Of a stretch of 64,000 nt of DNA, positions 44,589 to 53,530 are shown in pieces; the first letter of the stretch is position 1; each line of letters opens with the position of its first letter. Below the pieces are notes generated by a model. That model saw only the letters and a program-made list of their open reading frames with translations. It did not search any database and had not been told where the DNA came from. A program made the position numbers and the translations under genes. The stretch is from Streptosporangiales bacterium. GTDB lineage: Bacteria; Actinomycetota; Actinomycetes; Streptosporangiales; WHSR01. The DNA lies in NCBI GenBank assembly GCA_009379995.1, contig WHSR01000017.1, positions 1 through 64,000 of the forward strand, written 5' to 3'.

Positions 44589-45578
44589 CTAACCTCCAAT
44601 CGCCGACATCGGCCGCGTGGGCTGCAGGAAGCCCGGGTCGTCGATGCCGTGGCCCGGCTTCTTCGCCCAGACGGCCGCGCGCCAGCGATCGGCGAGGTCG
44701 TCGTCGCTCGTCCCGGCACGCATCGCCCCGCGCAGGTCCGACTCCTCGCGGGCGAACAGGCAGTTGCGTACCTGGCCGTCGGCGGTGAGCCGCACCCGGT
44801 CGCAGGCGCCGCAGAACGGCCGCGTCACCGAGCCGATGATGCCCACCCGCTCCGGTCCGCCGTTGACGATGAAGGTCTCGGCCGGGGCACTACCCCGCTT
44901 CTCGGGGTCGTCCGGGGTGAGATCGAAGCTGCGAGACAGCCGATCGAGGATCTCGTCCGCGGTGATCATGTCGTCCCGGCTCCACCCGTGCTGGGCGTCG
45001 AGCGGCATCTGCTCGATGAATCGCAGCTCGTAGGAGTGGTCCAGGCAGAACTGCAGCAACTGTTCGCCCTCGTCGTCGTTCACGCCCCGCATGAGCACCG
45101 CGTTGACCTTGACCGGCCGCAGCCCCGCCCGGTGGGCGGCCGCCAGCCCGGCGAGCACGTCGTTCAGCCGGTCGCGGTGCGCCAGCCGTACAAAGGTGTC
45201 CGGCCGCACCGTGTCGAGCGAGATGTTGATGCGGTCCAGCCCGGCGTCGCGGAGCGGCTCCGCGAGCCGCGCAAGGCCGATGCCGTTGCTGGTCAAAGTG
45301 ATCTGTGGGCTCGGGCTGAGTTGCGCGGTCCGGCGCACGATCTCGGTCAGCCCGCGACGCAGCAGCGGTTCGCCTCCGGTGTAGCGGACCTCCTCGATGC
45401 CCAGCATGGTGACCCCGATTCGAACGAGCCGAACCACCTCGTCGTCGGTGAGGATCTCCGGCCGCGGGAGCCAGTCGAGGCCCTCCGGCGGCATGCAGTA
45501 GCTGCACCGCAGATTACATCGGTCGGTGAGGGACACCCGAAGATCCGTCGCGACGCGGCCAAAGGGATCGATCAGCAT
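44589..45578 (-). CDS. moaA: GTP 3',8-cyclase MoaA
   Basis: This radical-SAM enzyme makes the first pterin intermediate. The 4Fe-4S motif is in DRCNLRCSYCMPPEG and the second cluster in FCGACDRVRLTADGQVRNCLF. YTGGEPLLRRGL is typical. The C-terminus ends in GG, needed for activity. ATG 45578 follows GGAGGTG; the long upstream extension overlaps selB and is discarded (329 residues). Confidence 0.95.
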   Translation of the reverse strand: MLIDPFGRVATDLRVSLTDRCNLRCSYCMPPEGLDWLPRPEILTDDEVVRLVRIGVTMLGIEEVRYTGGEPLLRRGLTEIVRRTAQLSPSPQITLTSNGIGLARLAEPLRDAGLDRINISLDTVRPDTFVRLAHRDRLNDVLAGLAAAHRAGLRPVKVNAVLMRGVNDDEGEQLLQFCLDHSYELRFIEQMPLDAQHGWSRDDMITADEILDRLSRSFDLTPDDPEKRGSAPAETFIVNGGPERVGIIGSVTRPFCGACDRVRLTADGQVRNCLFAREESDLRGAMRAGTSDDDLADRWRAAVWAKKPGHGIDDPGFLQPTRPMSAIGG

Positions 45579-45657
45579 GGGCGTCACCTCCTTGGTCACA
45601 ACGCCAACCCTAAGCGCTTCACCGACCCAAGATGTCGACCGACTTTTTCGGTCATAC

Positions 45658-47442
45658 TCATCGGTCGACGTCCGGGTCTCGGCATCTCCGGTGCGTGGTA
45701 TCGATGCGCCGGGTGATGCCCTTTCGGTCGAGGTGCTCCAGCAGCGGGATCGCCACCCGCCTCGTGGTGTCCAGCGCCTGCCGTGCCTCGCTCGCGGTGA
45801 ACGGCTGCTCGAGCCGGGCAAGGGTTCGGGCCGCCTGTAGATCCGCGCCCGGCAGCAGCACGATGTCGTCGCCGATCCGCAGCAGCGCGCCGGCGCGTAC
45901 CGCCGCCGCGAGCAGCTTCGACGTCAGGCCGAGCTCGGCCAGCCTGCCCGCATCCGGCGCACGGTACGGCGAGGCGGTCAGCTCCTTTCGGACCGCCTCG
46001 ACGGCCGCCGCGACCTCGGGCGGCAGGACGGGGTCACGCTGTGCGCCGTACACCCGCCCTTCCCGGATCCGCAGCGGCGGCTCCACCAGCGCCTCGACGA
46101 GCCGACGATCGGGCAGGCCGAGAAGGCTCCGGGCCGCCTCCATCGGGATACCCGGATCCAGCGGGTCGGTGGCCGACCTGCGTTTCACGGCGTCGGCGAG
46201 CTTGTCCCGCAGCCGGGCCCAGTACTCGGCGTCCACGTGCCACTCGCCGGCGACGGGTTCGTTCGGCGGTACGCAGCCCATCGCGACAAGGTCGGCACCT
46301 CGAAGGAAGCCGAACCTGCGCAGCAGGGCGGTGCCGTCGCCGGCGCCGTCCCCGGTGCCGTCGAGCCGTGCGAGCTCGCGGGCGCGCGCCGCGGCGGCAC
46401 CGCGACGCCGCAGCGGCGGCGGCCGCACGTCGAGGATGGTCACGCCCGCCGGGATCCGGTGGCGGCCGGGGTCGCGCAGCAGCGCACGGTCCCCGATGTG
46501 CAGCGGGAGCGGGGAGGCGAGGACCAGTCGAGCGCTGTCCGGCCCGAGCGGACGTACGTTCGCCGCCACGCCCGCGGCACCGATGTGGAAGATCAGCTCC
46601 CGGGGCAGCGACGAGGGCTCGTCCCCGCGCAGCCGTACGTCGACGACGTTGGTCATGTACCAACGTCCGGGGGTGACGAGTGCCATGCCCCGGCCCACCT
46701 CGGTGCGACCGAGCCCTCGGATGTTCACGGCGACCCGCGCCACCGCCGACGCCTCCTCGGCGGACTCCTTGAGCGATTGCAGCGCCCGGATGCGGGCCCG
46801 CCGGCCGGTCGGGGCGAGCACGAGCTCGTCACCGACGCGGAGCCGGCCGCCCGGCAGGGTGCCGGTGACCACGGTGCCGCTGCCGCGGATGGTGAACGAC
46901 CGATCGATCCAGAAACGTACCGGTGCGTCCGTTTTCGGCTCCGGCAACCCCGCGGCCAGTCGTTCGAGCGCCGCCCACAGCAGGTCGATTCCCTGACCGG
47001 TGAGCCCGCTCACCACCACCGACTCGACGTCTCCCAGGCTGGTGTCTCGGATCTCGGCCAGGGCCTGCCGGCGGGCCTCCTCCGGGTCGCAGATGTCCGC
47101 TCGGCTGACGACGAGGAGACCGTGCCGCACGCCCAGCGCGTCGATCGCAGCGAGGTGTTCCGCGGACTGCGGCTTCCAGCCCTCGTCCGCGGCGACCACC
47201 ATCATCACCGCGGGTACCGGGCCGACGCCGGCGAGCATGTTGGTGACGAAGCGCTCGTGGCCCGGTACGTCGACGAACGCGAGGCGTTCGCCGGAGGGCA
47301 GCGTGGTCCACGCGTAGCCGAGGTCGATGGTCAGGCCGCGTCGCCGCTCCTCCGCCCACCTGTCGGGTTCCATCCCGCTCAACGCGCGCACCAGCGTGGA
47401 CTTCCCGTGGTCGACGTGCCCGGCCGTGGCGATGACGTGCAT
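45658..47442 (-). CDS. selB: Selenocysteine-specific elongation factor SelB
   Basis: The 594-residue GTPase delivers Sec-tRNA to UGA codons with a SECIS element. The EF-Tu-like part has TAGHVDHGKSTLVRALSG, RRRGLTIDLGYA, DVPGHERFV and VVSRADICDP. The beta-barrel domain has FTIRGSGTVVTGTLPGGRLRVGDEL. C-terminal winged helices include FTASEARQALDTTRRVAIPLLEHLDRKGITRR, which read the SECIS RNA. ATG 47442 overlaps the selA stop. Confidence 0.95.
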   Translation of the reverse strand: MHVIATAGHVDHGKSTLVRALSGMEPDRWAEERRRGLTIDLGYAWTTLPSGERLAFVDVPGHERFVTNMLAGVGPVPAVMMVVAADEGWKPQSAEHLAAIDALGVRHGLLVVSRADICDPEEARRQALAEIRDTSLGDVESVVVSGLTGQGIDLLWAALERLAAGLPEPKTDAPVRFWIDRSFTIRGSGTVVTGTLPGGRLRVGDELVLAPTGRRARIRALQSLKESAEEASAVARVAVNIRGLGRTEVGRGMALVTPGRWYMTNVVDVRLRGDEPSSLPRELIFHIGAAGVAANVRPLGPDSARLVLASPLPLHIGDRALLRDPGRHRIPAGVTILDVRPPPLRRRGAAAARARELARLDGTGDGAGDGTALLRRFGFLRGADLVAMGCVPPNEPVAGEWHVDAEYWARLRDKLADAVKRRSATDPLDPGIPMEAARSLLGLPDRRLVEALVEPPLRIREGRVYGAQRDPVLPPEVAAAVEAVRKELTASPYRAPDAGRLAELGLTSKLLAAAVRAGALLRIGDDIVLLPGADLQAARTLARLEQPFTASEARQALDTTRRVAIPLLEHLDRKGITRRIDTTHRRCRDPDVDR

Positions 47443-48776
47443 CACCGCTCACCCTCTCCGGCGGTCCCCGCCCGCACACCGGGTGCCAGGGCAAGGACCG
47501 CGTCGCGTAGCGCCTCGTCCATGTGCTGCGGTACACACCGTAGATCGAGCAGGCAGCGCCCTCGCTCGACGCGGCCGACCAGGGCGGGGTCGCCGCGGCG
47601 CAGCGGTTCCGCGTACGCCCCGGGCAGGCTCACCGCCGCGCTCGGCAGAACCAGCCCCGGCGCTCCCCCGCCGCCGACGGTTGCGTCGGAGCGCACGGCC
47701 TGCGCGGCGACGCCACGCGCGACGAGGTCGCCCGCGACGTCCTCGGCGCGGCGCAGCAGCTCGTCGGGATCCGCGTGCAGCGCCTCGGCGGTGGGCGTCG
47801 CCGGGCCGCGCAGCGTGGCCCCCAGCGCGGCCAGGGCGAGCTTGTCGACCCGCAGCGCGCGGGTCAGCGGGTGCCGGCGCAGCCGCTGCACAACGGAGGC
47901 GCGCCCGAGCAGCAGCCCGGCCTGCGGTCCGCCGAGGAGCTTGTCGCCGCTGGCGGTGACCAGATCGGCGCCCTCGCGCAGCACGGTGGCGGCGTCCGGC
48001 TCCTCGGGCAGCAGCGGCTCCGGAGCGAGCAGTCCGGAGCCGATGTCGACCACCAGCGGCACGCCGAGCCCGGCGAGCTCGCCCACCCCCACGCTGGACG
48101 TGAACCCCTCTATCCGGAAGTTGGACGGGTGCACCTTGAGCACGAACCCGGTCTCACCGGTGATCGCCTCGGCATAGTCACGCAGCGTCGTGCGGTTGGT
48201 GGTACCGACCTCGCGCAGCCGCGCGCCGGTGGAGGTCAGCAGCTCGGGTATCCGAAAACCATCGCCGATCTCCACCATCTCTCCCCGGCTCACCACGATC
48301 TCCCGCCCGAAGGCCATGGCCGTGGCGGCCAGGACGAGGCCCGCCGCGTTGTTGTTCACCACATGCACGTCCTCGGCGGCGGGAACCGCTGCCGCGAGGG
48401 CCGCGAGCGCGGTACGCCCGCGCCTGCCGCGGCGGCCGGTCTTGAGCTCGAATTCGATGTCGGTGCAGCCCGCGGCGTCGAGAACCGCCTCCCGAGCCGC
48501 CGCGGACAGCGGGGCGCGGCCCAGGTTGGTGTGCAGGATGACCCCTGTGGCGTTGACGACCGGACGCAGGCCGCCGGCGCCCGCCGGCAGGGCGGCCAGC
48601 ACGGCGTCGGCGACGGCCTCGGGTGGGATCTGGCCCGCGCGGGCCCGCTCCTGCGCGGCCACGATGGCGGCCTTGACCAGGGCCTTGCCGAGCCGGGTCT
48701 GCGCGTCAACGAGACGCGGATCGGCCAGGAGAGCGTCGGTGCGAGGAACACGTCGACGCGGATCCACCACGGACAC
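47442..48776 (-). CDS. selA: L-seryl-tRNA(Sec) selenium transferase SelA
   Basis: The 444-residue PLP enzyme converts Ser-tRNA(Sec) to Sec-tRNA(Sec) with selenophosphate. It has the N-terminal RVPRTDALLADPRLVDAQTRLGKALV, NATGVILHTNLGRAPLS, HVVNNNAAGLVLA, and the PLP-Lys in VTASGDKLLGGPQAGLLLG. It is followed by selB with overlap. No selC or selD is seen nearby. Confidence 0.95.
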   Translation of the reverse strand: MSVVDPRRRVPRTDALLADPRLVDAQTRLGKALVKAAIVAAQERARAGQIPPEAVADAVLAALPAGAGGLRPVVNATGVILHTNLGRAPLSAAAREAVLDAAGCTDIEFELKTGRRGRRGRTALAALAAAVPAAEDVHVVNNNAAGLVLAATAMAFGREIVVSRGEMVEIGDGFRIPELLTSTGARLREVGTTNRTTLRDYAEAITGETGFVLKVHPSNFRIEGFTSSVGVGELAGLGVPLVVDIGSGLLAPEPLLPEEPDAATVLREGADLVTASGDKLLGGPQAGLLLGRASVVQRLRRHPLTRALRVDKLALAALGATLRGPATPTAEALHADPDELLRRAEDVAGDLVARGVAAQAVRSDATVGGGGAPGLVLPSAAVSLPGAYAEPLRRGDPALVGRVERGRCLLDLRCVPQHMDEALRDAVLALAPGVRAGTAGEGER

Positions 48777-48779
48777 CTT

Positions 48780-49673
48780 CTAACCCGGTGCAGCCTCGTC
48801 GAAGCCGCCGCGGACGTGCGGTGCCCGGTGGGCAAGCGCGGCGATCCCGCCAGCCATCACGCCGAGCGCGAGCACCTCGGCAAGCACCGCGAACGCCGAC
48901 GCGTCGATCTGTTCGCCCAGCCACAGCAGCCCGATCCCGATGCTCACCAGCGGGTCGGTGGTGATGATGACCGCGAGCGCCGGCGCGACGATCGCCCCGG
49001 CCTGGAAGGCGCTCTGGTTGAGCAGGAAGCCGAGCGGTCCGATCACGCACACAATGTACAGCGCCCAGCCCTGGAACGGCTCGGTCAGCCCGCGCTCGAG
49101 GTCCCGGGCAACCACCTTGATCAGGCCGGCGGTCACCCCGTACAGGACACCGGTCGCGAGCGCGAGGGCGAGAGACCGGGGCAGCCCGGTGAACCGCAGC
49201 GCCAACGTGATGCATGCCCCCAGGGCGAACGCCAGGCCTGCGGCCAGCGGGACCACCTCTGTGAGGGTGAGCTGCCCCTCCCCACGGGAGGGCCTCGCGG
49301 CGAGGAGGAAGGCGGCAAGTCCGACGACGCAGCATCCGGCACCCGCCAGCAGGACACGGTCCGGGCGCTGCCTCTGCAGCGCCGCGCCGAAGACGACAGC
49401 GAAGAGCAGGCCGGTGACCAGCATCGGCTGCACGAGGACGAGCGGAGCGTAGCTGAGCGCCACGACCTGGGCGCTGATCCCGACGAGCATGGCCGCCATC
49501 GACGCCATCCACAGCGGCTGCCGGGCAAGGTCAACCAGCAGCCGCGGACGGGCCGGACCCTGCCAGGGCACCCGTCTCGTCGCGCGGTACTGCATCACGC
49601 CGGCCAGCCCGAAGCTGGCGGCGGCGACGACGGAAGCCGGCATGGCCAGAAGCAGATTCGCCGCAGCCACCAC
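48780..49673 (-). CDS. DMT/EamA-type integral membrane transporter
   Basis: The 297-residue product has about ten hydrophobic helices in two repeats and no soluble domain, the layout of drug/metabolite transporters. Typical segments are ASFGLAGVMQYRATRRVP at the N-terminus and APALAVIITTDPLVSIGIGLLWLGEQIDASAFAVLAEVLALGVMAGGI near the end. It starts at GTG 49673, 3 bp after the glycosyltransferase gene, so it is probably co-expressed with the glycolipid genes and could move a lipid precursor or drug. The substrate is unknown. Confidence 0.83.
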   Translation of the reverse strand: MVAAANLLLAMPASVVAAASFGLAGVMQYRATRRVPWQGPARPRLLVDLARQPLWMASMAAMLVGISAQVVALSYAPLVLVQPMLVTGLLFAVVFGAALQRQRPDRVLLAGAGCCVVGLAAFLLAARPSRGEGQLTLTEVVPLAAGLAFALGACITLALRFTGLPRSLALALATGVLYGVTAGLIKVVARDLERGLTEPFQGWALYIVCVIGPLGFLLNQSAFQAGAIVAPALAVIITTDPLVSIGIGLLWLGEQIDASAFAVLAEVLALGVMAGGIAALAHRAPHVRGGFDEAAPG

Positions 49674-49676
49674 ACC

Positions 49677-50912
49677 TCATCCCTTCACGGGAACACCGCC
49701 GACACCCAGCGCGGCAACGGCGCGAAGATCCTCCTCACGGGTCCGGGCCCGTACGTGTGCGAGGGCGGACCTCTCCAGACGTGCCCGTGCCCGCGGCTCC
49801 TCGACCAATCGCCGGACCTCCCGGGCAAGATCGTCCGAGCTGGGGCACAGCAACGCCAGACCGCAGTCGGCCATGAGGGCGGCACTCGCCCGACCGTGGG
49901 CCGCGATCGGGTCGAACATCACGACTGCCCGACCGCAGCTCAGTGCCTCCATAGCCGTCACACCGCCGTTGTTTGTGACGAAGGCGTCGGAGGCGACCAT
50001 GTAGGACGGCATCTCGTCGGTCCAGCCTAGAACGAGCAGGCGGCGCGGCGGGCAATCCCACGCCGCGAGCCGCTCCCGTAGCTGCTCGTTGCGGCCGCAG
50101 ACGGCGACGACCTGGATCCCCGGGTCGACGCTGAGCAGGATCCGTACCGCCTCATCCACCGCCCCGAAACCGAGCGATCCACAGGACAGCAGTGCGACGA
50201 AGGCATCCTCGGCAAGACCGAGGCGACGGCGTGCCGCCCTTCGGTCACCCGGCGCGTACGCGTCGGTCACCGGAGGAGCGCAGACCGCTACGGACGCGCC
50301 CGGCTCCGCGGCCTTCGCCACCGGAACACCGCTGTCGTGCATGACGTAGTAGAGGTCGAGGTCGGGGTAGAGCCAGAACGGATGCGGCGCGAAGTCCGCC
50401 ACCCACGCCGCCACCGGCACGTTCAGACCACGATGGCGACGAAGCCACTGCAGGCCGGCGTTCCCGAGCGGATAGGTGGAGACGATCAGGTCGGGGTCGT
50501 ACTCCTCGATGGCCGGGGCGAGGCCACGGCCACTCCATGCCGCCACCACCTGCTTGGACGCGCTGGAGAACCAGCGGCGCCGCCACAGGGATCCGTAGAA
50601 CAGCTCGTACAACGGCGGGGTCGTCTGGACATTCGTCACAAAGATCCACCGGAACGTCGGACCCACCCCGCGGCCCATGGCCTCCAGCGCGTCCACCCAG
50701 CGGATTCCGCAGTCCGGCCACAGCCGGCGGGCGGCCTGCTCGATCGCGCGGGCCGTGGCGTTGTGCCCCTCCCCCATGTCGGCGGTGACGATGAGCAGCC
50801 TCTTCGGGCTGGTGTCACGGTCCTGCGACGACACGGTCACCGGGCTCGACACACCGGCCATGTACCCCGGGAAAGGTTCGGTGTCACTGTGACGTCGGTC
50901 GCTCACGCTCAT
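49677..50912 (-). CDS. MGDG synthase-like glycosyltransferase (GT28 type)
   Basis: The 411-residue protein starts with a disordered region and then LLIVTADMGEGHNATARAIEQAARRLWPDCGI, the N-terminal motif of the monogalactosyldiacylglycerol synthase-like family (binding the lipid acceptor). The C-terminal nucleotide-sugar domain has VCGRNEQLRERLAAW, LGWTDEMPSYMVASDAFVTNNGGVTAMEALSCGRAVVMFDPIAAHG. A sugar from a UDP donor is transferred to a lipid. It is paralogous to the N-terminal half of the next gene and overlaps it by 4 bp. Confidence 0.9.
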   Translation of the reverse strand: MSVSDRRHSDTEPFPGYMAGVSSPVTVSSQDRDTSPKRLLIVTADMGEGHNATARAIEQAARRLWPDCGIRWVDALEAMGRGVGPTFRWIFVTNVQTTPPLYELFYGSLWRRRWFSSASKQVVAAWSGRGLAPAIEEYDPDLIVSTYPLGNAGLQWLRRHRGLNVPVAAWVADFAPHPFWLYPDLDLYYVMHDSGVPVAKAAEPGASVAVCAPPVTDAYAPGDRRAARRRLGLAEDAFVALLSCGSLGFGAVDEAVRILLSVDPGIQVVAVCGRNEQLRERLAAWDCPPRRLLVLGWTDEMPSYMVASDAFVTNNGGVTAMEALSCGRAVVMFDPIAAHGRASAALMADCGLALLCPSSDDLAREVRRLVEEPRARARLERSALAHVRARTREEDLRAVAALGVGGVPVKG

Positions 50913-53530
50913 CTCAAGGCGACCTGGTGCAGGGCGACGAACGACTCGCGCACGCCGTCGACCAGCCGGTCCGCGTCGGACACCAGGGTGACGTCAGCGG
51001 TGATGCCGACGGTGAAGGAGTCCCCCCAGGACAGTACGCCCACCGAGAGCCCCACCTCCTCGGCCAGCGGAAGCACCGGGTAGACCTCTTCCAGCCGTAC
51101 TCCCACGAAGGAGTACGGCTGGCGCGGCCCCGGGATGACCGACACGATGAGGTTGAACCAGCGACTGCGGTAGGTCCACCGCGCCAACCACGCCTCGAAG
51201 GGGGCGGGGAGCACGCCCATCGCGCGCATGAGGAACCTCGCCGCCTCGGGCTCGCCGTGCCGCAATCCCCGCCGAAGGCGCGCCTGGGTTTCCTGGAGAC
51301 GGGACAGCGGGTCCATCGGCCCGACGGGTAGGTTCACCCGCACCCCGCCCGTCCAGTTACCCGACATCATGCGGCCGTCCATGGTGCGCATGGTGCGGGG
51401 AACGATCGCGCGAAGGGAGCGCTCCGGCTCGCCGCGCTCGGCGAGCAGCCGGTGTACCGCGTCCGCCACGATGGCCAACAGGAGTTCGCTGCTGGTCACC
51501 TTGAGGTTGCGGGCCGCCTCGCGGATCTCCCCGGCCGGCAGGGAAACGGACACGTAGTGCCGGGACGGTGTGCCCATGGGCCCGTTGAGGCTGCTGATAG
51601 GCGCCCGTCCGGCCCGTGCCAGGCTCCAGAACCCACTGACGACGAGCGCGGCGTCCCGTATCTTCGTCCGGGCGGGCCCGAGCCGCTTGCCGTTCACCGA
51701 GCCCTGCGGCTTCGGAGGCGGTTCGGCGGCCCGGTCGTTGGGATGGCGCGCGTCGTCCAGCAGCCCACTCAAGGTGTCGATGACGGCGAATCCGTCGCCC
51801 ATCGCGTGATGCAACTTCACGACCAGGGCGGAGCCACCGTGGTCGAGACCGCGGACGAAGTGCATCTCCCAGGGTGCCCGGTCCAGGTTGACGGGGGTGG
51901 AGAAGAAGTCGTCGACCAGCTCGGCGAAGGTTTGCGGCTGGCCGACCGCCCCGATCACCCGCTCTTTGAGGTGCTCCGACAGGTCGATCGACTCGTCGAC
52001 GATCCAGGACGGGCGGCCCCACCGCCGCCTCGGTGGGATAAGCCGGCGGCGCAGGTTCGGCAACCCGTCCATCCGGCGCTCCATGTCCGCCATCACCTCG
52101 GGGAAGGTGAGCGAGGAGCGCTCCAGTATGGCGATCCCACCCACCTGCTGTGCGACGGCAGGAGTCTGGGTGTACAGGAAGAACGCGTCCTCGGGACGCA
52201 CGACCTCGCGACGGGGCTTGCCCTGTCGCGGTCCGCCACCGGTTGGCCGATGCCCGTTTCGATGCGGCCGAAATCGGCGGGACCGTGGTCGCAGTGGGCC
52301 TCGCCGCTGTGCCCGGGCCGTCGCGAGCGGAACCAGCGCGCGCAGGTCATCCGTGCGGTTGCGACGCCGGGCAAAGGCGAGCGACCGTTCCTCCTGCTCC
52401 GACCGCCGGCTTGGATCATCCATCAGCTGCCTGACCACACGAGTGAGCTCCCTAGGACTGCTGCACAAGAGGGCGAGCCCGGTGCCCGCCATGATTTCGG
52501 TGTTGGCGCGGCCGTGCGCTGCGATGGGCTCGAACAGGACGAGCGTGCGGCCGCAGCACAGCGTTTCCAGCGCAGTGGCGCCCCCGGCATTGGTGACGAC
52601 CAGGTCGGACGCGACGATATTGGAAGCCATGTCATCGATCCATCCCAAAAGGAGCAAGCGCGCCGGAGAGAGCCCACGCGCCGCGAGCCTCCTCCGCAGC
52701 CGCTCGTTTCGGCCACATATCGCAACCACCTGGACCCGCGGATCGATGTCGAGCAGGGTGTCGACCGCCCTCTCCACCGTCCCGAAGCCAAAGTACCCAC
52801 AGGAGAGCAAGACAACGAAGGACTCGGAGGCGAGCCCGAGCCGGCTCCTCGCCGCCGCGCGATCGCCCGACCGGAAAGCGTCGCCGACCGTGGGCGCTCC
52901 CACCCGGAGCGAGATCCCGGGCTCCGCCGCGCGGGCGATCTCCGCACAGCTCTCGTGCATGACGACGTGAAGGCCCAACCCGCGATAGAGCCAGAACGGA
53001 TGGGTAGCGAAGTCCAACACCCAGACGCCGACCGGCACCTCGAGGCCGCGGTGTCGGCGCAGCCAGTCGAGCCCGGCCGAGGCGATGGGGTGCGTCGAGA
53101 CGACGAGGTCGGGATCGTACGCCTCGATGTACGTGGCAAGCTGGCGTCCGCTCCAGGAACCGACCAGACGCTTGGATGCCTTGGCAGCCCAGCGGTACGC
53201 CCAGAGCGCACCATAGAAGAACTCATAGAACCACGGGGTGAGCTGAACGTTAACCACGTAGAGCCACCGCAGGATGCCGCCCACGCCGCGACCCATCACG
53301 TCCAGAACGTCCAGACGGCGCAGGTCGCTTTGCCGCCATAGCCACCGTGCGGTCTGCTGGATACTGCGTGCCGCCGCGTTGTGGCCGGCGCCAATCGTGG
53401 CGCTGATCACGAGAACTCGCCGAGGAGGCCGACCATCCTGGCCACTCGGAGGCTCGACCGAGCCGGTCGGGACGGACACGATCAGCACTCTAGCGACGCT
53501 ACGGAACACCGGGCGCGATAAGGTCACCAC
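50909..53530 (-). CDS. Fusion: MGDG synthase-like glycosyltransferase + wax ester synthase/DGAT
   Basis: The 873-residue protein has two enzymes. Residues about 38-405 are a glycosyltransferase (VLVISATIGAGHNAAARSIQQTARWL; ICGRNERLRRRLAARG; GWIDDMASNIVASDLVVTNAGGATALETLCCGRTLVLFEPIAAHG). Residues about 408-445 are a very basic linker. Residues about 445-873 are a WS/DGAT acyltransferase with the active-site motif HHAMGDG (574-580), a PLW-like segment PVNLDRAPWEMHFVRGLDHG, and a conserved C-terminal NLIVSVIPGPRQPYSFVG. The frame is continuous. It suggests that one polypeptide both glycosylates and acylates a lipid. The first ~30 residues are uncertain. Confidence 0.9.
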   Translation of the reverse strand: MVTLSRPVFRSVARVLIVSVPTGSVEPPSGQDGRPPRRVLVISATIGAGHNAAARSIQQTARWLWRQSDLRRLDVLDVMGRGVGGILRWLYVVNVQLTPWFYEFFYGALWAYRWAAKASKRLVGSWSGRQLATYIEAYDPDLVVSTHPIASAGLDWLRRHRGLEVPVGVWVLDFATHPFWLYRGLGLHVVMHESCAEIARAAEPGISLRVGAPTVGDAFRSGDRAAARSRLGLASESFVVLLSCGYFGFGTVERAVDTLLDIDPRVQVVAICGRNERLRRRLAARGLSPARLLLLGWIDDMASNIVASDLVVTNAGGATALETLCCGRTLVLFEPIAAHGRANTEIMAGTGLALLCSSPRELTRVVRQLMDDPSRRSEQEERSLAFARRRNRTDDLRALVPLATARAQRRGPLRPRSRRFRPHRNGHRPTGGGPRQGKPRREVVRPEDAFFLYTQTPAVAQQVGGIAILERSSLTFPEVMADMERRMDGLPNLRRRLIPPRRRWGRPSWIVDESIDLSEHLKERVIGAVGQPQTFAELVDDFFSTPVNLDRAPWEMHFVRGLDHGGSALVVKLHHAMGDGFAVIDTLSGLLDDARHPNDRAAEPPPKPQGSVNGKRLGPARTKIRDAALVVSGFWSLARAGRAPISSLNGPMGTPSRHYVSVSLPAGEIREAARNLKVTSSELLLAIVADAVHRLLAERGEPERSLRAIVPRTMRTMDGRMMSGNWTGGVRVNLPVGPMDPLSRLQETQARLRRGLRHGEPEAARFLMRAMGVLPAPFEAWLARWTYRSRWFNLIVSVIPGPRQPYSFVGVRLEEVYPVLPLAEEVGLSVGVLSWGDSFTVGITADVTLVSDADRLVDGVRESFVALHQVALR

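Follow-up and report, generated by a model that had tools for sequence, protein, structure and literature searches.

Does the frame on the minus strand at positions 50909 to 53530 of the window, the whole 64,000-nucleotide stretch analyzed, encode a single protein, and what might an enzyme of this composition make? The preliminary description, which was silent on the strand and on the second glycosyltransferase gene adjoining the fusion, read it as one continuous 873-codon frame in which a GT28 domain of the MGDG-synthase-like type and a WS/DGAT domain are connected by a very basic linker. The analysis agreed with it on the frame, the domain content and the linker, and the features of the gene are as follows.

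50909..53530, minus strand: GT28 (MGDG-synthase-like)::WS/DGAT-like fusion gene, 873 aa, GTG start (open frame, Pfam, GC3, counterpart in genome G494)
52937..53383, minus strand: MGDG_synth N-domain (acceptor side), aa 50-198 (PF06925, 2e-13, 51.2 bits); aligns with 4wyi and 9wde
53381-53383, minus strand: histidine H50 of GAGH, within the MGDG_synth N-domain
52382..52744, minus strand: Glyco_tran_28_C (nucleotide-sugar) domain, aa 263-383 (PF04101, 5e-5, 23.7 bits); aligns with 9wde and 4wyi
52196..52345, minus strand: basic linker, aa 396-445, with 16 Arg/Lys and 1 acidic residue
52199-52201, minus strand: GTG codon 444, a possible relic start in the linker
51683..52195, minus strand: WS_DGAT_cat domain, aa 446-616 (PF03007, 3.6e-29, 102.8 bits)
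51791-51811, minus strand: HHAMGDG, aa 574-580, intact (motif survey)
51485..51490, minus strand: position of the ND motif, here Ser681-Glu682 (motif survey of WS/DGAT rows)
50930..51361, minus strand: WS_DGAT_C domain, aa 724-867 (PF06974, 5.8e-26, 91.7 bits)

The frame contains no internal stop codon and, with 873 codons, is longer than any open run in 40 Markov simulations of 20 kb with the same composition (at most 565 codons). Its GC3 per 60-codon block ranges from 0.72 to 0.93 along the whole frame and is 0.66 over the linker, and all four Pfam matches exceed the curated cut-offs (gathering scores). The fusion is thus confirmed as one gene. An assembly or annotation artefact, in which a missed stop or a frameshift merges two neighbouring genes, could draw on the GTG codon immediately ahead of the acyltransferase half, a possible start for a stand-alone enzyme; it is, however, extremely improbable and in practice refuted, because the same junction recurs in G494, an independent and unrelated genome, and because the coding signal is continuous and a third genome, G005, carries a decayed form of the fusion.

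G494, which belongs to another order, came up when the class was searched with the acyltransferase half as query. Its complete GT28::WS/DGAT protein is 44% identical to that of the window over its length, and the alignment runs through the junction (DLR-ALVPLATARAQRRGPLRPRSRRFRP versus DLRTGLSRLATPRGRRAPRPRRAWP). In G005, a genome of the order of the window whose contig (JAFMQP010000089.1) is labelled as that of an Acidothermales MAG, we found a 533-aa protein with an acyltransferase half 36% identical to that of the window and an N terminus that is a GT28 remnant, scoring 34.1 bits against the glycosyltransferase profile as compared with 8.4 for the best of 2000 shuffles. The question raised earlier, namely, whether homologues keep the catalytic residues, thus received a divided answer: G494 retains both active sites, whereas the glycosyltransferase half is lost in G005. 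Both genomes additionally contain an ordinary single-domain WS/DGAT.

Further fusions of this type were sought more widely, and as the large genome searches scored few candidates per genome, the resulting counts are lower bounds. Among 299 genomes of the order of the window, an MGDG_synth match in a frame longer than 755 aa was found solely in the window genome; G494 was the single genome with a GT28::WS/DGAT fusion among 166 of its own order, and a sample of 397 genomes of the phylum yielded none besides that of the window. A pattern scan of GTDB contigs with the whole fusion protein gave no match; with query A3, the same scan returned only a pair of distant enzymes besides the contig of G005. 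Among the matches listed from plasmid records there were separate WS/DGATs only, with 25-28% identity, and no record covered 80% of the query. Four long WS/DGAT frames (L097, L098, L142 and L144) were considered as fusions and rejected, their N-terminal extensions having no GT28 or PAP2 match. Judging from the relatives in G494 and G005, this uncommon fusion either dates far back or was passed from one lineage to another, and it can lose its glycosyltransferase half.

GT28 enzymes of the MGDG-synthase kind transfer a hexose onto diacylglycerol (DAG). The nearest solved structures of the fused glycosyltransferase are diacylglycerol glucosyl-/galactosyltransferases (9wde and 4wyi), and it resembles MGD1 and UgtP, to which these structures correspond, in domain order, GxGH, DFxxHPxW and the GG.T..E region; DFATHPFW is read in the MGDG_synth N-domain and NAGGAT...PIAAHGRAN in the GT28 C-terminal domain. 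H50 aligns with H155 of Arabidopsis MGD1, which is reported to be the catalytic base (PMC7419546). The fused enzyme differs from MGD1 and UgtP in the acyltransferase attached at its C terminus and in its score of 106 bits against NF010135 (diglucosyl-DAG synthase UgtP equivalog), which is far below the cut-off of 500.

By its sequence, the C-terminal half is a divergent relative of the WS/DGAT enzymes and not an ordinary member. Like AtfA-type bacterial WS/DGATs (PF03007 plus PF06974; 6chj and 7nxg), it has both Pfam domains and HHxxxDG, and the best fold match of the predicted model is the WS/DGAT family; unlike them, it has SE for ND and APW for PLW, is joined to a GT28 domain, and falls under the TIGR02946 cut-off (277.6 versus 309.95 bits). 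Other members of the fusion clade that were scanned scored 168-256 bits, and eight single-domain relatives 427-507 bits. The earlier assignment to WS/DGAT consequently stands for the domains and HHxxxDG but has to be narrowed to a divergent form. The claim that both motif sets look functional is supported by the intact GAGH and HHAMGDG.

HHxxxDG is common to all clade rows and single-domain enzymes surveyed. Of 75 single-domain WS/DGATs, 74 have the ND motif, which is absent from all 10 fusion-clade rows surveyed; at this position, fusions to a PAP2 domain (see below) retain Asp, and GT28 forms have SE, YE or ST. As cited in PMC4520822, Villa et al. (2014) found the ND motif to be needed for the correct fold of the active site, and its loss could reflect weakened catalysis instead of a new acceptor. 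PLW likewise occurs in 74/75 single-domain enzymes. The Asn of [ST]NVPGP, present in all 75, is kept in the PAP2 fusions and replaced in GT28-fused members alone, as expected if the acceptor changed. Mycobacterial PapA-type acyltransferases of the HHxxxDG kind belong to the same superfamily and are proof that sugars can be acylated by an enzyme of this fold; their likeness to the window enzyme is one of superfamily and motif, and they are not known to carry a GT28 fusion. The structure model of the fusion, obtained from a 5-row alignment with a mean pLDDT of 53.9, is informative solely for the fold of the C-terminal half and says nothing on channelling: its glycosyltransferase half and domain packing are weak, and its low-confidence linker looks flexible.

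The class-wide search also revealed seven PAP2_3::WS/DGAT fusions (L090-L096, in G351, G605, G619, G336, G319, G342 and G024; for example, L091:7299-9818 and L092:1385-3556). Pfam confirms six of them, and the seventh, L090, shares 97% identity with L091 across the PAP2 part; PSLH and NHYxLD motifs are readable in this part of the fusions. A single-domain second WS/DGAT lies near the PAP2 fusion in G605 and G351 (L090 and L091). In acyltransferase-domain trees of 85 and 50 sequences, in which the long end branches of G494 and G005 call for caution, the GT28 fusions formed one clade with the G005 remnant (support 98/96) and the PAP2 fusions a second clade (100/99); the two together made up a clade (100/100) apart from all other single-domain WS/DGATs sampled. 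The two forms belong to sister acyltransferase clades and both have an N-terminal lipid head-group enzyme, whereas the partner in the PAP2 forms is an integral-membrane phosphatase-type domain and not a glycosyltransferase. One clade member, in G571, has an acyltransferase without a recognizable fusion partner. The approximately 100 residues ahead of the acyltransferase in this protein (L149:4906-6597, minus strand), which have no Pfam match, may be what is left of a PAP2 domain. The GT28 and PAP2 forms may or may not stem from a single fusion event, with domain swap, independent fusion and loss as possible routes.

The preliminary description knew of no characterized enzyme with the architecture of the window protein, and in keeping with this we found no paper in the open-access literature that describes a GT28::WS/DGAT or a PAP2_3::WS/DGAT fusion. 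The enzyme class of each half is known; new are their joining, the fusion clade and the altered motifs. Two partners in one clade, both expected to act on DAG, offer in the manner of a Rosetta stone a hint at what substrate is used by a WS/DGAT-like branch whose function is unassigned. In Streptomyces, DAG for triacylglycerol (TAG) synthesis comes from PAP2-type phosphatases (PMC3599759), although the enzymes of that study were not shown to be PAP2_3. As GT28 enzymes glycosylate DAG and the PAP2_3 domain is expected to yield it, DAG is the common denominator of the two partners.

The fusion is followed, all on the minus strand and with very short gaps or overlaps, by GT2, a DMT transporter gene, SelA and SelB. 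Two of these genes bear on its function.

49677..50912, minus strand: GT2, a stand-alone GT28/MGDG-synthase-like gene with a 4-nt overlap with the fusion, 55-59% identical to the fused glycosyltransferase
48780..49673, minus strand: DMT-family transporter (NIPA/EamA-like; PF05653, 7e-8; NF038012 above cut-off)

SelA and SelB, and then a MoaA-type radical SAM gene, occupy window positions 44589-48776 on the minus strand, and a tRNA-Sec was not found in the window. The DMT gene is probably on the same transcript as the fusion and GT2. In a glycosyltransferase tree, the fused domain, GT2 and the fused domain of G494 formed one group (support 99) with no firm branching inside it, and the stand-alone GT28s of the order fell elsewhere in the tree.

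Stand-alone GT28 genes of the order (L150-L166, L054 and L055) are arranged tail-to-tail with one or two DMT genes at 18 of 20 loci, and the pairing is also seen in 29 of 30 shorter loci. A DMT gene lies directly downstream of the fusion in G494 and of four of the seven PAP2 fusions, one of them by a looser match only. At 79 loci with a single WS/DGAT, the majority of them short stretches of 3-4 kb, no DMT gene was found alongside. Some DMT-superfamily proteins are glycolipid transporters (PMC9574504), and by analogy the DMT protein of the window may move the glycolipid. A stand-alone GT28 with its DMT gene is a candidate glycolipid synthase-transporter pair, and through this pairing a possible transporter of glycolipids is indicated for many actinobacteria.

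Taken together, the sequence data are best explained by an enzyme with two activities that would sit at the membrane surface and act in the metabolism of glycerolipid head groups. Of the products that the GT28 fusion might make, we consider an acylated glycosyl-DAG the most probable, a proposal that we make tentatively and at somewhat less than even chances. The N-terminal GT28 domain would transfer a hexose from a UDP-sugar to DAG, and the two halves of this two-step membrane enzyme would share DAG or glycosyl-DAG. The basic linker would serve to anchor the two halves at the anionic inner leaflet; MGD1 has been reported to need anionic lipid (PMC7419546), and by analogy the linker may help to bind it. 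GT2 would either attach a further sugar or produce the lipid in its unacylated form, and transport of the product across the membrane would fall to the DMT protein. The substrates, the order of the steps, the role of the linker and the transport are all inferred. An acylated product is favoured because it is precisely in the GT28-fused lineage that conserved residues of the acyltransferase show additional changes, and because G494 and G005 each have an ordinary WS/DGAT of their own, so that these genomes do not depend on the fused enzyme for storage DGAT activity. The signature motifs in both halves, the shared junction and downstream DMT gene of G494, the nearness of the fused glycosyltransferase to DAG glycosyltransferases of solved structure, the DAG-handling role expected of both fusion partners, and the association of DMT genes with GT28s and not with single WS/DGATs also speak for it. 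Such a product would make the fusion a one-gene route to acylated glycolipids.

Nearly as probable, in our estimation, is that the C-terminal half is a true DGAT that makes TAG while the GT half makes glycosyl-DAG, the fusion partitioning DAG between membrane glycolipid and storage fat. No second WS_DGAT_cat match besides the fusion was found in the 5.8 Mb window genome (168 contigs, 94% complete), so that the fused enzyme, as the only WS/DGAT found there, could be the TAG synthase, which argues against an acylated glycolipid. HHxxxDG is intact, and the sister clade is fused to PAP2_3, an expected DAG supplier, which makes DAG the simplest shared substrate. Against this partitioning stand the TIGR02946 score below the cut-off, the replaced ND and [ST]NVPGP residues and the canonical WS/DGATs of the two relatives; moreover, two competing enzymes gain nothing obvious from being fused. 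If DAG is partitioned, the protein would be a physical node linking membrane and storage lipid. With either activity, the fusion hints at an unstudied route to acylated glycolipids or at a sorting of fat between membrane and store. The preliminary description had put forward these same two functions, and they stay ahead of the other candidates.

The retention of the acyltransferase and the loss of the glycosyltransferase in G005 indicate that the former can work without a GT of its own, which also counts against an acylated glycosyl-DAG. They would fit largely independent halves with different acceptors (for example, polyprenol or another lipid alcohol), in which fusion would do no more than ease co-expression from a lipid operon and the GT half would not be needed, with GT2 as its backup. 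GT2, encoded next door, could indeed supply the GT function, G571 lacks the PAP2 partner, and the modelled linker appears flexible. We nevertheless consider independent halves unlikely, as the motifs of the fused glycosyltransferase are kept in both the window and G494, and the presence within one clade of two distinct partners that should each deal with DAG speaks for a common substrate.

Returning to the acylated glycosyl-DAG, the proposal can be extended to the whole group: an HHxxxDG subfamily mainly fused to DAG-handling GT28 or PAP2_3 partners, the GT28 form being an acyl-glycosyl-DAG synthase that operates with a DMT-type glycolipid flippase. In this full form it is a possibility that we regard as rather less probable than its opposite. 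A different combination was observed in G865 and G954 (L140:8997-11015, minus strand, and L141), where an MGDG_synth-type glycosyltransferase is followed by a hydrophobic segment and then by a weakly matching polysaccharide-deacetylase-like domain (E 0.012, below the cut-off).
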